64,000 nucleotides of DNA from Methanolobus zinderi (GTDB lineage Archaea > Halobacteriota > Methanosarcinia > Methanosarcinales > Methanosarcinaceae), in the NCBI RefSeq assembly GCF_013388255.1, contig NZ_CP058215.1, forward strand, positions 310,001 through 374,000. Direction: 5' to 3'. Positions 2,085 through 7,529 of the stretch are shown piece after piece. Every line of letters begins with the position of its first letter. Position 1 is the stretch's first letter. The notes under the pieces are model-generated. The model was not told the DNA's origin, made no database searches, and saw only the letters and a program-made list of their open reading frames with translations. Both the position numbers and the translations under genes were made by a program.

Positions 2085-2750
2085 TTACGGGTCCAGTGAC
2101 TGGATCACTGGTATGACTGCTTCAAGATTCTTTTCTGTAATTACAACGTCTGCGTGCTCATGTAATATAGGTTTCGAATTAAAGGCTATGGCATATCTTG
2201 CTCTCTTGAAGATGCAGATATCATTTGCCCCGTCACCAATTACGATACACTCTTCAGGTTCTATTCCGTATTCACCGGATATCTCTTCCAGGACGAGTTC
2301 CTTAGAACCTTCTCCTGTCAGAGGTCCCGTGACCTCCCCTGTAATATGGTCGTTGTTTATCAGAAGTTCATTGGATACCACATGGTCCATGCCAAGTGCT
2401 TCACCCACACGGTCTGCCGCAAGTGTGAAACCTCCGGATATCATGGCTGTCCTGTATCCACGGGATTTTAAGTATTTGATCAGTTCCTTAGCGCCAGGCA
2501 TAAAAGGCATCCTGTCCAGTGCTTCGTGTGCCTTTTCAATAGTCAGACCTTCAAGCAGACGCACTCTTTCGGTAAGAGCCTCAGAATAGTCGAGTTTTCC
2601 ATGCATAGCCTGCTCGGTTATGGCGGCTACCTTATCTCCTACTCCTGCAGCTTCCGCAAGTTCGTCAATGGTCTCAGCATCTATAAGAGTGCTGTCCATA
2701 TCAAAAACTACTAACTTGATCCTCGCTTCAGAATTGTCAGTATTACTCAC
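2085..2750 (-). CDS. serB: Phosphoserine phosphatase SerB
   Basis: 221-residue HAD-superfamily phosphatase that removes phosphate from O-phosphoserine, the last step of serine synthesis, in the cytoplasm. Motif I is DMDSTLIDAE near residue 17 (nucleophile and acid/base Asp), motif II is the Ser in MISGG, and motif IV is GDGANDI, all as in SerB. Start is GTG at 2750. It is followed by the coiled-coil gene on the same strand. Phosphoserine is also the substrate of SepS (11060-12679) in this organism, so SerB competes for the precursor of Cys-tRNA. Confidence 0.93.
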   Translation of the reverse strand: MSNTDNSEARIKLVVFDMDSTLIDAETIDELAEAAGVGDKVAAITEQAMHGKLDYSEALTERVRLLEGLTIEKAHEALDRMPFMPGAKELIKYLKSRGYRTAMISGGFTLAADRVGEALGMDHVVSNELLINNDHITGEVTGPLTGEGSKELVLEEISGEYGIEPEECIVIGDGANDICIFKRARYAIAFNSKPILHEHADVVITEKNLEAVIPVIQSLDP

Positions 2751-2993: not shown

Positions 2994-3794
2994 ATGGTTA
3001 ACGAAAAACTAAGTTCCGATAATCTGAAAAATGTGGATATTGCAAAGGATGTACTCGATCAGCTTCCATGTATGGTAATGGCCGTTGATCTTGATTTTAA
3101 TATACTGTTCTTAAACGACACCGGGTGCGAATGGATGGGGGACGATTTTGAAAATGTCGAGGGTAAGAAGTGTTATGACCTGGTGAAGTCAGCCCATTGC
3201 AGAACCGATAACTGTCGCATCAAGCAGGCAATGAATAATGACAGGAAGTATGTATGGAGAAATGAGATCACAACCGGTGGTAAGACCTTCCCGATCGAAT
3301 ACACTGCGGCACCTCTGAAAGACAAGGACGGTAATATTGTGGGCGGAGTCGAGTACGTCATTGATATTTCCGAGAGGGTGGAGATCGAGAAAGAAGTTCA
3401 GGAACACAGCCGGACTATCATGGAGCTTTCCACTCCGGTTATCAAACTCTGGGACGGTATTGTCATACTTCCTCTTGTAGGGGTGATCGACACCATGCGT
3501 GCCCAGCAGATCATTGAGAATCTCCTGTCATCCATAGTTGAGAACGAAGCCACCGTGGCGATACTCGATGTGACCGGTGTTCCGATGATCGACACAAGCG
3601 TTGCACAGCATATTCTCAAGACTGTCAGTGCGGGCAAGATGCTTGGAGCTGAAATAATCATAACCGGTTTCAGTCCCAATGTTGCCCAGACTCTTGTAAC
3701 CCTCGGGGTTGACCTGAGCGATATTATCACCTGTGGCTCGTTAAAAGATGGTGTATCAAAAGCCTTCACGCTTGTGGGAAGAAAACTTGTGTAA
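2994..3794 (+). CDS. RsbR-like stressosome sensor (PAS + STAS)
   Basis: 266 residues. An N-terminal PAS domain (about 20-130) is followed by a short helix and a STAS domain (about 145-266). In bacterial stressosomes RsbR proteins carry a variable sensor in front of a STAS domain that packs with RsbS and holds RsbT. The STAS part has Thr201 in MIDTSVAQ and Thr224 in IIITGFSP, which by motif match the two phosphorylated threonines of Bacillus RsbRA. The PAS domain has Cys60, Cys69 and Cys74 in a pattern seen in several methanogen PAS domains and might bind a metal or sense redox; that is inference. AGGAGG precedes the ATG. First gene of a six-gene operon. Confidence 0.85.
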   Translation: MVNEKLSSDNLKNVDIAKDVLDQLPCMVMAVDLDFNILFLNDTGCEWMGDDFENVEGKKCYDLVKSAHCRTDNCRIKQAMNNDRKYVWRNEITTGGKTFPIEYTAAPLKDKDGNIVGGVEYVIDISERVEIEKEVQEHSRTIMELSTPVIKLWDGIVILPLVGVIDTMRAQQIIENLLSSIVENEATVAILDVTGVPMIDTSVAQHILKTVSAGKMLGAEIIITGFSPNVAQTLVTLGVDLSDIITCGSLKDGVSKAFTLVGRKLV

Positions 3795-3808
3795 GCAGAG
3801 GTGATTAT

Positions 3809-4174
3809 GTGGAAATTCCAATACTGAAATTGAAAAATATTCTTCTCACCTCGATACAGAGTGATATGAACGATGATGACGCACTGAAATACCAGTCCGA
3901 TGTCATGTCAACTCTGGAGAAAAGCGGTGCTAAAGGCCTTATCATAGACATCACGGCAATGGATATCATGGACTCTTTCATGGCCCGCGTCATCAATGAG
4001 ACCGCAAGAATGGCACGCCTTATGGGTGCAAGGGTCGTCCTCTGTGGCATGCAACCAATGGTTGCGCTGACACTGGTTGAAATGGGGCGTGAGCTGATCG
4101 GTGTGGATACCGCACTGAATCTTGACAAAGGTTTTGACAAACTGATAAAAATGATCAACGAAGGGGTTGATTGA
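3809..4174 (+). CDS. RsbS-like STAS protein
   Basis: 121-residue single STAS domain, the length of the stressosome scaffold RsbS. The phosphorylation loop reads MDIMDSFMAR, with Ser56 at the place of the Ser that RsbT phosphorylates in Bacillus RsbS. The segment VVLCGMQPMVALTL has Cys where RsbR has the second Thr, as expected for RsbS rather than RsbR. Start is GTG at 3809 with GAGGTGA about 5 nt before it, 14 nt after the RsbR-like gene. The next gene overlaps its 3' end by 8 bases, so translation is probably coupled. Confidence 0.85.
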   Translation: MEIPILKLKNILLTSIQSDMNDDDALKYQSDVMSTLEKSGAKGLIIDITAMDIMDSFMARVINETARMARLMGARVVLCGMQPMVALTLVEMGRELIGVDTALNLDKGFDKLIKMINEGVD

Positions 4175-4577
4175 GATAAGTGAGACTAGTATTGATCTTC
4201 GGAATGAAGATGACATCCTCATAGCCAGGCAGACTGCAAGGAAAGAAATGGCTGACATAGGCTTTGGTTCTGCTGATCAGACACGTATGGCCACAGCGAT
4301 CTCCGAGCTGACAAGAAATGTGATCAAATATGCGGGAGAAGGTGTATGTCATATTGTTACGGGAGCTTCTTCTTCAGAGATACACATTAAAGTAGAGATC
4401 GAGGATTACGGGCCGGGCATTGTTGATGTGGACAAGGCTATGGAAGATGGCTATACAACTGGTGGCGGATTGGGTGCAGGCCTTCCCGGTGCAAAGAGGC
4501 TTGTTAATGATTTTCAGATAGAGTCGCAACCCGGATTGACAAAGATAAATCTGGAAATGAGTCGTCCCAATGTCTGA
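4167..4577 (+). CDS. RsbT-like serine/threonine kinase (HATPase_c)
   Basis: 136-residue GHKL-type kinase. The N box is SELTRNVIKYA (Asn51), the G1 box is DYGPGI and the second glycine-rich part is GGGLGAGLPGAKRL, the exact layout of RsbT. RsbT phosphorylates RsbS and RsbR in the stressosome and, once released, switches on a partner through that partner's N-terminal domain. Start is TTG at 4167, overlapping the RsbS-like gene by 8 bases. Position after R and S gives the canonical R-S-T order. Confidence 0.87.
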   Translation: MIEISETSIDLRNEDDILIARQTARKEMADIGFGSADQTRMATAISELTRNVIKYAGEGVCHIVTGASSSEIHIKVEIEDYGPGIVDVDKAMEDGYTTGGGLGAGLPGAKRLVNDFQIESQPGLTKINLEMSRPNV

Positions 4578-5013
4578 TATCCCTGCTTCCGGGTCTGCCG
4601 GAGAAAATCTTGAGGCAAGAGTGGAGGTAACAAGGATCGCTCACGTGGCAAATGTTCAGACCAAAGTGCGGGCAATCACAAGGATACTTGGTTTTCCTGA
4701 ACTGTACATATTCAGGGCGGCAATTTCAGCATCCGAACTTGCCTCAAATCTTGTGTATCACACTACAGCAGGTGGTACCATAAGTATCAGGGGGATCAGG
4801 AAAAAGGGATGCATCGGGATTGAGATCATTTCAGACGACTCGGGTCCGGGGATAAAGGATGTGAATATGGCTTTGCAGGATGGCTATTCAACGGGACCGG
4901 GCCTTGGATCTGGTCTTCCTGCTGTTGAAAGGTTGATGGATGAACTGGAAATTCTGGTAACAGACGATTTCAAAACATGTATTAGAAGCAGGTTGTGGTA
5001 TTTTTGCGAATAG
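4570..5013 (+). CDS. Second RsbT/RsbW-like HATPase kinase
   Basis: 147 residues, again a small GHKL ATPase: N box ISASELASNLVYH, G1 box DDSGPGI, and GPGLGSGLPAVERL. It is a diverged partner of the gene before it and overlaps it by 8 bases. Bacterial RST-type operons may carry extra RsbT/RsbW-like kinases, so it may phosphorylate one of the STAS proteins or act as an anti-regulator; which one cannot be read from sequence. Compared with the preceding kinase it has a longer N-terminus and ends in an unusual CIRSRLWYFCE tail, which I judged real and not a frameshift because it fits the last strand of the fold. Confidence 0.8.
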   Translation: MSDIPASGSAGENLEARVEVTRIAHVANVQTKVRAITRILGFPELYIFRAAISASELASNLVYHTTAGGTISIRGIRKKGCIGIEIISDDSGPGIKDVNMALQDGYSTGPGLGSGLPAVERLMDELEILVTDDFKTCIRSRLWYFCE

Positions 5014-5576
5014 CAATGGAATCACGTTCGTTCAATGGAGACGTACATTGTGGGGACCAGTGTGACTGGTGGCTTGAAGATAATATTCTGACCCTATGTA
5101 TGATCGACGGACTGGGTCATGGAAAACATGCAGAAGAAGCTGCAAAAGCGGCTCTGGGTTATGTGTCCTCCCATCTCGGCGAATCTCTGGATACTCTCTT
5201 CTCGGGATGTGACAGGGCTATAAAACAAACAAGAGGTGTTGCCATGGGTATTGTCCGTGTGGACCTGAATGAGTATAACCTTGAGTACGGAGGTATCGGG
5301 AACACTCGTGCTATGATCTACGGGGAAAACGGATCTCACTTTTCTTCAAGCTGGGGTATCGTGGGAGGCGGTTTCAGGCATTTGCATATCGAAAGAACAC
5401 AGTTATCCCCTGATAATCTCCTTCTCATGTGGACAGATGGTATACCTGAAAGTCTCAAAATTTCGGGATATGATAGGTATCTGCTTCAGGATGAACAGGA
5501 ACTGGCCAGAGCAATACTCGGAGATCATGGTCGTATGACAGATGATGCGACTATACTTGTGTATATGACAGGGTGA
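4995..5576 (+). CDS. RsbX-like PP2C/SpoIIE-type phosphatase
   Basis: 193-residue phosphatase of the SpoIIE/PP2C family, the size of RsbX with no sensor domain. Metal-binding acidic residues are seen in HCGDQCDWW, MIDGLGHGKHA, MWTDGIPE and MTDDATILV. RsbX removes phosphates from RsbS and RsbR and resets the stressosome. I keep the GTG at 4995, although it overlaps the previous gene by 19 bases, because the first strand (LRIAMES) is needed to align with the family; ATG 5016 would cut it off. The stop overlaps the next start by 4 bases. Confidence 0.83.
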   Translation: MVFLRIAMESRSFNGDVHCGDQCDWWLEDNILTLCMIDGLGHGKHAEEAAKAALGYVSSHLGESLDTLFSGCDRAIKQTRGVAMGIVRVDLNEYNLEYGGIGNTRAMIYGENGSHFSSSWGIVGGGFRHLHIERTQLSPDNLLLMWTDGIPESLKISGYDRYLLQDEQELARAILGDHGRMTDDATILVYMTG

Positions 5577-6598
5577 TGGATATTACAAAAACGGAATTCA
5601 ATGACAGGTATTATGAGATTTTAAAGGGTTATGTCGAGACCCATGAAGAAATATATCTTATGAGATCTGAAGATCTGGGTTATGAACTGGTAAAATTCAA
5701 CATTCCTCCGGAAGATATCATCGAGTTGCATGAAACCGCAGTTTCAAGATTGACCGCCGAACTTGCTCCCAAAAGAATGATAGAGTCAGTAGGTTTTCTT
5801 TCAACACCTCTGGTAGAAGTGATGATGGCATATGGACTTGCCTTCAGGCAATGGATCGAGGACCTGGAAAAGAGCAAGCAGGAACTTATGGTATATGCAG
5901 AGGAACTGCAGCACTCAAACCAGTTAAAAGAACTGTTTGCAGATATCCTACGCCATGATCTGTTAAACCCTGCATCTCTGATCAACGGCTTTGTCGGCAT
6001 TTTGCTTGAACTGGAGGACGATGAAAAGAAGAGGTCCTTGCTTTCCAATATTGAAAAAAGTAATATTAACCTGATCAATATTATTGAACAGGCAGCAGAA
6101 TTCGCCAAACTGGATTCAGTGACCGGACTGGATTTTTCAGAGCATGATCTCGGAGTGATCCTCACTAATATTGTAGATGAGTTCATACCGGAATTCGAAA
6201 AAAGAGAAATGACCATATCTCTGGAAACAGAAGGCAGCTATCCTGTATTGGTACACCCTACGATAAAACAGGTCTTTGCAAATCTTGTATCCAATGCGAT
6301 CAAGTACAGCCCCGAGGGAAGCCATGTGGGAATTTCCATTTCCGATTCAGATGATCAATGGAAGGCATGTGTAAAGGACCAGGGAAGTGGCATTCCCGAG
6401 GAGGACCGTGAACTTATCTTTACACGTTTTTCAAGGCTGGATAAAGCTAAAAAGGGAAGTATCAAGGGTACAGGCCTTGGTCTTGCAATTGTTCATAAGA
6501 TCGTAACTCTTCACAACGGCAGTGTCGGTGTGGATAGTAATTTTCCTGAAGAGGGCAGCACCTTCTGGGTCAGGCTCGATAAAGCTCAGGCAAATTAA
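5573..6598 (+). CDS. Histidine kinase with an RsbU N-terminal domain
   Basis: 341 residues. Residues 1-95 resemble the RsbT-binding N-terminal domain of Bacillus RsbU: compare IPPEDIIELH here with IPPEEIISIH, and VEVMMAYGLAF with IEVMIGYGMAY (recalled sequence). A coiled linker leads into HisKA with the H box ILRHDLLNP (His128), then a HATPase domain with NLVSNAIKYSPEG, DQGSGIPEED and KGTGLGLAIVHKI. There is no PP2C domain and no membrane segment, so it is a soluble kinase. It overlaps the phosphatase gene by 4 bases and closes the operon. The likely meaning is that released RsbT binds this N-terminus and controls autophosphorylation; no response regulator is next to it. Confidence 0.87.
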   Translation: MMDITKTEFNDRYYEILKGYVETHEEIYLMRSEDLGYELVKFNIPPEDIIELHETAVSRLTAELAPKRMIESVGFLSTPLVEVMMAYGLAFRQWIEDLEKSKQELMVYAEELQHSNQLKELFADILRHDLLNPASLINGFVGILLELEDDEKKRSLLSNIEKSNINLINIIEQAAEFAKLDSVTGLDFSEHDLGVILTNIVDEFIPEFEKREMTISLETEGSYPVLVHPTIKQVFANLVSNAIKYSPEGSHVGISISDSDDQWKACVKDQGSGIPEEDRELIFTRFSRLDKAKKGSIKGTGLGLAIVHKIVTLHNGSVGVDSNFPEEGSTFWVRLDKAQAN

Positions 6599-6707: not shown

Positions 6708-7529
6708 ATGGCAAAGATTGGATTCATTAAATTAGGTAACCTTGGTATGAGCCAGGTTATTGATCTGGTACAGGACGAAATCGCAGCAAGAGAAGGAATC
6801 ACTGTTCGTGTTTTCGGAACCGGTCCAAAAATGGGCAAGGATGAGGCAGCTGCAACAGAGGAGCTTAAAAAATTCGATGCTGACTTCTACGTTATGATCA
6901 GTCCGAACTCAAGCGCACCAGGCCCGACCGCAGCACGCGAACTCTACAAGGACGTTCCATGCATCGTGATCTCAGACGGTCCTACCAAGAAGGACGACCG
7001 TGCAGCCCTTGAGGAAGCAGGATTCGGTTACATTATCATGACCGTTGACCCGCTTATCGGTGCAAAGACAGAATTCCTCGACCCAGTAGAGATGGCATCA
7101 TTCAACTCAGATGCAATGAAGGTCCTTTCAACCTGCGGTGTTGTAAGGCTCATTCAGGAAGAACTCGACAAGGTCGCAGCAATGGCAGACGAAGGTAAGG
7201 AACTTGAACTTCCACACATCCTCGCAAAGCCAGAGAAGTGCATCGAGAGAGCAGGATTCAACAACCCATACGCAAAGGCAAAGGGTCTTGCAGCACTCCA
7301 CATGGCCGACATGGTCGCAAAGATCAACTTCCCTGCATGCTTCATGATGAAGGAGATCGAGCAGGTCGCACTCACAACTGCAGCAGGTCACGAGATGATG
7401 CGCGCAGCAGCACAGATGGCAATCGAGGCAAGGGAAATCGAGAAGGCAAACGACAGTGTCTTCAGGCAGCCACACTCCAAGAAGGGCAAGCTGCTGACAA
7501 AGACAACCCTCTACGAGAAGCCACAGTAA
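6708..7529 (+). CDS. mtd: F420-dependent methylene-H4MPT dehydrogenase
   Basis: 273-residue enzyme that interconverts methylene- and methenyl-tetrahydromethanopterin (here the sarcinapterin form) using coenzyme F420, a central cytoplasmic step of methanogenesis. The N-terminus KIGFIKLGNLGMSQ and the block FGTGPKMGKDE are hallmarks of Mtd, and the length agrees with the family. In methylotrophic growth it runs in the oxidative direction to give reduced F420. It is a single-gene transcript with its own TATA box and a strong terminator. The codon use is clearly more biased (many GCA, CTC, AAG, GAG) than in neighbours, as expected for a highly expressed gene. Confidence 0.97.
   Translation: MAKIGFIKLGNLGMSQVIDLVQDEIAAREGITVRVFGTGPKMGKDEAAATEELKKFDADFYVMISPNSSAPGPTAARELYKDVPCIVISDGPTKKDDRAALEEAGFGYIIMTVDPLIGAKTEFLDPVEMASFNSDAMKVLSTCGVVRLIQEELDKVAAMADEGKELELPHILAKPEKCIERAGFNNPYAKAKGLAALHMADMVAKINFPACFMMKEIEQVALTTAAGHEMMRAAAQMAIEAREIEKANDSVFRQPHSKKGKLLTKTTLYEKPQ

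Follow-up and report, generated by a model that had tools for sequence, protein, structure and literature searches.

In bacteria, the stressosome, comprising RsbR, RsbS, RsbT and RsbX, releases the kinase RsbT, which activates an RsbU-type phosphatase that feeds sigma factor B. To our knowledge, archaea have no sigma factors. Here we analyse a six-gene operon of Methanolobus zinderi, a methanogenic archaeon, located at positions 2994–6598 of the window, i.e. the whole stretch of 64,000 nucleotides under study (contig NZ_CP058215.1, positions 310,001–374,000, of RefSeq assembly GCF_013388255.1). The operon is a real and well-conserved archaeal variant of this known system, and we consider it probable (roughly 0.7) that it represents a stressosome unit with a two-component output, in which RsbT would switch a histidine kinase. 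Such wiring, carried by some Methanolobus species, would show how a bacterial signalling module was re-plumbed in organisms without sigma factors.

The Methanolobus operon shares with the stressosome of Bacillus subtilis and Listeria the relatives of RsbR, RsbS, RsbT and RsbX, the conserved phosphorylation and active sites, and an RsbU_N docking domain on the output protein. However, the output in those bacteria is a PP2C phosphatase feeding SigB (RsbU-RsbV-RsbW-SigB), whereas a histidine kinase is predicted in Methanolobus, together with an RsbR carrying a four-cysteine PAS domain, an extra kinase, denoted T2, and an archaeal host. An RsbU_N domain on a non-phosphatase output is also found in Moorella thermoacetica (MtR-MtS-MtT-MtX and the RsbU_N-GGDEF protein MtG), although that output is a diguanylate cyclase rather than a histidine kinase.

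The same RsbT-docking domain occurs on a histidine kinase in the stressosome operons (RSTX modules) of Proteobacteria, where RsbU_N proteins lie downstream (PMC9237108), RsbU_N kinases next to rsbT have been published (PMC9237108, PMC12143880) and one such histidine kinase, NreB, has been modelled (PMC12143880). The proteobacterial modules surveyed contain a globin RsbR and a single-domain RsbX (PMC9237108), in contrast to the PAS-type RsbR, stand-alone T2 and archaeal host described here. The RSTX set has been noted in "even some archaeal species" (PMC9237108); within the open-access literature we found no paper describing a methanogen stressosome, archaeal species appearing in one-line mentions only.

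Gene content and predicted sensory core of the operon

The six open reading frames (ORFs) lie on the forward strand, with a gap of 14 nt between the first two and overlaps of 8, 8, 19 and 4 nt thereafter, as the original prediction from the bare sequence had read them. The identities it had assigned, namely RsbR, RsbS, RsbT, a second small kinase, an RsbX phosphatase and a histidine kinase, were named independently by searches against Pfam (matches over the gathering thresholds) and solved structures. The identical six-gene order is present in seven Methanolobus genomes, which excludes a chance grouping.

The first gene (2994–3794) encodes a putative RsbR-like co-antagonist and sensor, with a PAS_4 domain (aa residues 21–129, E-value 2.3e-15) and a STAS domain (aa residues 152–240, 1.7e-14) that aligns with solved RsbR chains (1e-32). 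Its predicted phospho-acceptors T201 and T233 are the equivalents of T171 and T205 of B. subtilis RsbRA, and the T201 position is occupied by serine or threonine across relatives. The second gene (3809–4174) codes for an RsbS-like antagonist consisting of a single STAS domain (3.6e-11), whose nearest solved structures are RsbS proteins (2e-31) and whose predicted phospho-acceptor S56, corresponding to S59 of RsbS, is invariant in the 18 RsbS sequences aligned. The product of the third gene (4167–4577) is a putative RsbT-like switch kinase (HATPase_c_2, 2.6e-8) with an intact Bergerat ATP site, invariant ATP-site residues and equivalents of RsbT R19, R23 and D92. This protein is 45% identical to the reference sequence that we take to be B. 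subtilis RsbT, which agrees closely with the Bacillus loci, and it groups with the RsbT proteins of other operons when 146 HATPase domains are arranged in a tree; a phmmer search of the PDB gave no match at 1e-3. In one archaeal genome the RsbT gene is split into two short ORFs (L042:7346-7858), a possible frameshift or assembly error. The stressosome-type module that had been proposed for a methanogen is thus borne out in its core, a sensor fused to STAS, RsbS and RsbT being encoded together in the order R-S-T with their phospho-acceptors kept.

The PAS domain of RsbR contains four cysteines (Cys45, Cys60, Cys69 and Cys74; motif GC-W...C[YF]...C-x4-C), which are conserved in all seven Methanolobus carriers, in three genomes of a second genus of the same family (g13) and in one bacterial locus (L054), and are lacking in the other archaeal RsbRs examined. 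No solved structure matched this PAS domain at 0.01, and a metal, cluster or redox role for the cysteines is a guess.

The probable output histidine kinase and its RsbU_N domain

The last gene of the operon (5573–6598) encodes a predicted histidine kinase whose start is likely the ATG at 5576, one codon inside the listed ORF, forming a TGATG overlap with the RsbX stop codon. It comprises RsbU_N (PF08673; aa residues 12–90, positions 5606–5842; 1.4e-13), HisKA (1.5e-6) and HATPase_c (6.1e-29) domains. The resemblance of its N-terminus to the RsbT-binding domain of RsbU, on which the original prediction depended, was recovered both by the Pfam profile and by solved chains of the B. subtilis RsbU N-domain (2e-8); RsbU_N is predicted to serve in RsbT docking and dimerisation. 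The HisKA histidine H128, N241, D269 and the G-box glycines are invariant in 20 proteins. In three related loci (L032, L034 and L035), conserved kinase coding sequence runs upstream of the first ATG, GTG or TTG to a nearby stop, so that these species may use an unusual start codon.

Genome-wide searches identified a single RsbU_N domain, that of the histidine kinase, two STAS domains, both encoded in the operon, and one SpoIIE-type phosphatase, likewise in the operon. Consequently, the histidine kinase is the only recognisable RsbU-type target of RsbT, and RsbX has no other recognised STAS substrate. For a SigB-type pathway (RsbU phosphatase, RsbV, RsbW, SigB), the genome yielded no STAS, SpoIIE-phosphatase or RsbU_N domain beyond those of the operon. 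Because the N-terminus of the histidine kinase is an RsbU_N domain, an output running from RsbT to the kinase is the best reading of the operon.

An AlphaFold model of the kinase (mean predicted local distance difference test score 85) contains three short helices and a fourth (aa residues 66–147) that continues unbroken from RsbU_N along the linker and becomes the HisKA helix bearing H128. Control through such a linker helix has been proposed for RsbU and, by extension, for histidine kinases, with the same geometry (PMC12143880). We propose that the PAS-STAS protein RsbR and the STAS protein RsbS would form a core holding RsbT at rest. A signal perceived by the PAS domain, perhaps a redox or metal cue in view of its four conserved cysteines, would lead RsbT to phosphorylate RsbR T201 and RsbS S56 and to leave the core. 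Free RsbT would then dock on the four-helix RsbU_N domain and order the helix running into HisKA, so that control would pass from RsbT to the kinase and switch its histidine autokinase activity, the phosphoryl group being handed to one of the approximately 20 receiver domains of the genome. Finally, RsbX, together with its putative partner T2, would dephosphorylate RsbS and RsbR and thereby reset the core.

The residues of RsbU that contact RsbT are E24, Y28, I74, I78 and R91 (PMC12143880). The first is kept in the kinase as E26, I74 and I78 correspond to the hydrophobic residues V81 and M85, and on the RsbT side the equivalents of R19, R23 and D92 are retained; with the contact residues partly kept, docking of RsbT on the kinase is plausible. 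Several observations weigh against this output. Y28 and R91 are replaced by M30 and about L98, respectively, so that the key salt bridge of the B. subtilis complex is lost at that position. A Foldseek search with the whole kinase model returned only histidine-kinase-type proteins among its top 50 matches, and none was RsbU; the RsbU_N assignment therefore rests on sequence profiles. None of the 20 receiver-domain matches in the genome adjoins the operon. Furthermore, two Methanolobus genomes (G060, locus L036; G062, locus L037) keep the RsbU_N-kinase beside mtd, the right-hand neighbour of the operon, with RsbS undetected in the genome, which indicates that a stressosome is not required for the kinase to be retained.

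These kinase-only loci and the two interface residues that are not conserved would also fit a scheme in which the other five genes form a stressosome, with RsbU_N acting as a passive dimeriser and RsbT phosphorylating or acting elsewhere. An interaction between RsbT and the downstream kinase was not found in Vibrio vulnificus, but the kinase there has no RsbU_N domain (PMC9237108). Against a passive role stand the presence of the sole genomic RsbU_N in the same cluster, with overlapping gene ends, and the co-occurrence of RsbU_N outputs with RsbR, RsbS and RsbT in many lineages, and we regard this explanation as unlikely.

T2 as a predicted partner of RsbX

The fourth gene (4570–5013) encodes T2, a second putative HATPase kinase (HATPase_c_2, 4.2e-8) with intact ATP motifs, invariant residues at these motifs and the SpoIIAB/RsbW fold (template modelling score of about 0.7 to SpoIIAB). 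The fifth (4995–5576) encodes an RsbX-like PP2C/SpoIIE phosphatase (SpoIIE, 2.4e-6), whose closest solved structure is Moorella MtX (3zt9, 2e-18), followed by RsbX (3w40, 3e-11), and whose metal-site aspartates D21, D38, D148 and D184 are invariant.

In the HATPase tree, T2 groups with the RsbX-fused HATPase domains of other stressosome operons (46 rows; Shimodaira–Hasegawa-like approximate likelihood ratio test support 93). An origin of T2 as a local duplicate of RsbT was considered and rejected, the tree placing it away from RsbT. Among 112 loci, which were picked by RsbS or RsbU_N similarity with a few duplicates included, so that the counts are not natural frequencies, T2 forms a fusion with RsbX in 41, stands alone directly upstream of RsbX in 18 (that of the window included) and is absent from 16. 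Judging from these relationships, T2 is no oddity but represents, as a separate protein, a HATPase domain that is most often joined to RsbX. Since the domain is fused to RsbX in most lineages, the separate T2 and RsbX proteins are predicted to bind each other; T2 is the likely partner of RsbX, a prediction that extends to many bacteria. A functional analogue would be the pairing of a HATPase serine kinase with a PP2C phosphatase whose substrate is a STAS protein, as in RsbW/SpoIIAB and in Vibrio fischeri SypE, a dual kinase/phosphatase acting on the STAS protein SypA (PMC8256260). Unlike in those systems, T2 and RsbX are separate polypeptides encoded in a stressosome operon, and no sigma factor is involved.

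With two kinases per operon, and with the ATP site of T2 intact and its fold that of SpoIIAB/RsbW, T2 rather than RsbT might be thought to partner the histidine kinase, or to compete with RsbT for both RsbS and RsbU_N in a two-kinase switch. This is very unlikely in our view: RsbT groups with other RsbTs and shares 45% identity with B. subtilis RsbT, against only about 29% between T2 and RsbT, the g13 operons keep the RsbU_N-kinase without T2, and the 41 fusions point to RsbX.

Variants of T2 and of the kinase were observed elsewhere. In the uncultured archaea GoM-Arc1, Argoarchaeum and G438 (L043:7996-8352, L074:7795-8157 and L090:7797-8159), the ATP lid of T2 is approximately eight residues shorter, hinting at a non-catalytic adaptor, with binding perhaps more important than catalysis there. 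Operons with fused T2-RsbX (L078, L082, L084, L094, L104, L106, L124 and comparable bacterial loci) often encode downstream a histidine kinase with its own N-terminal RsbT-like HATPase in place of RsbU_N, possibly a different output wiring.

Distribution, locus variation and significance

Of 393 genomes of the archaeal phylum, 28 encode RsbS-like proteins, spread over 19 of 136 genera, and 23 encode RsbU_N. The original prediction called for the operon order to be followed across Methanosarcinaceae: all six genes are found in the seven Methanolobus carriers, whereas g13 keeps the order minus T2 (R-S-T-X followed by the RsbU_N-kinase). The outputs of other archaea include RsbU_N combined with a histidine kinase, with three GAF domains and a histidine kinase, with PAS, histidine kinase and REC domains, or with GAF alone. 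RsbU_N outputs of these kinds accompany an R-S-T set repeatedly, in Methanosarcinaceae and further archaea as well as in bacteria.

A tree of RsbS and RsbT places Methanolobus and g13 in a clade (support 99) with Aureimonas, Methylobacterium and two bacterial metagenome-assembled genomes (MAGs), most of which share the six-gene order. Aureimonas sp. Leaf427 (L056), Methylobacterium bullatum (L089) and the MAGs CSMAG_1268 (L054) and GMC4 (L055) carry R-S-T-T2-X followed by an RsbU_N-kinase, but in bacterial hosts and with kinases only 21–26% identical to that of the window (L054, L056 and L089). A single clade of all archaeal stressosomes was rejected (approximately unbiased test, p 2.9e-56); a joint clade of Methanolobus and g13 was not (p 0.51). 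Archaeal stressosomes are polyphyletic, and bacteria share a clade with Methanolobus and g13; the module has thus crossed between the domains more than once, in one direction or the other. The description of the operon as a poorly described archaeal system therefore holds in part: it is not specific to archaea, having the same order and clade in bacteria, and archaeal RSTX sets had already been mentioned, but the full archaeal wiring, together with the interpretation of T2, the four-cysteine PAS domain and the clean locus polymorphism, is new with respect to the papers found.

In Methanolobus genomes whose flanks were examined, the variable locus is bordered on the left by a serB-like HAD phosphatase gene (2085–2750, reverse strand) and on the right by mtd, encoding methylene-tetrahydromethanopterin dehydrogenase (6708–7529, forward strand), both assigned by Pfam and locus comparison and lying outside the system. 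Of 27 genomes, 7 have the full operon, the form carried by the Methanolobus vulcani contig L053, 2 are kinase-only and 18 have an empty site between serB and mtd. Six of the carriers hold the operon between these two genes, and in the seventh (G048) it lies on a contig of 7 kb that stops short of mtd. Beyond tiny chance matches, the kinase-only loci contain no remnants of RsbR, RsbS, RsbT or RsbX, and their lone kinase may be a leftover or may act independently of a stressosome. A tree built from five flanking genes requires at least six changes between presence and absence, full and empty species being sisters several times; this pattern fits repeated loss as well as homologous recombination exchanging the operon at a constant site.

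Such a patchy distribution, with most species empty and at least six changes, might also be expected of a decaying recent import without function. This is highly improbable, as six open frames with intact catalytic residues persist across seven species, the gene order is maintained at one locus, and the guanine-plus-cytosine fraction of the operon (0.453) matches its flanks (0.452–0.461).

Work on stressosomes has centred almost exclusively on SigB. A complete archaeal unit, whose site is occupied, reduced to the kinase or empty in different genomes, would offer a clean system for studying the control of a histidine kinase by partner switching. A broader proposal remains tentative, and we rate it as less than an even chance: a stressosome free of sigma factors, in which a four-cysteine PAS domain would sense redox state or metal in a strict anaerobe, RsbT docking would drive the histidine kinase, and T2 and RsbX would act as a single bifunctional unit for its reset in bacteria and archaea alike.

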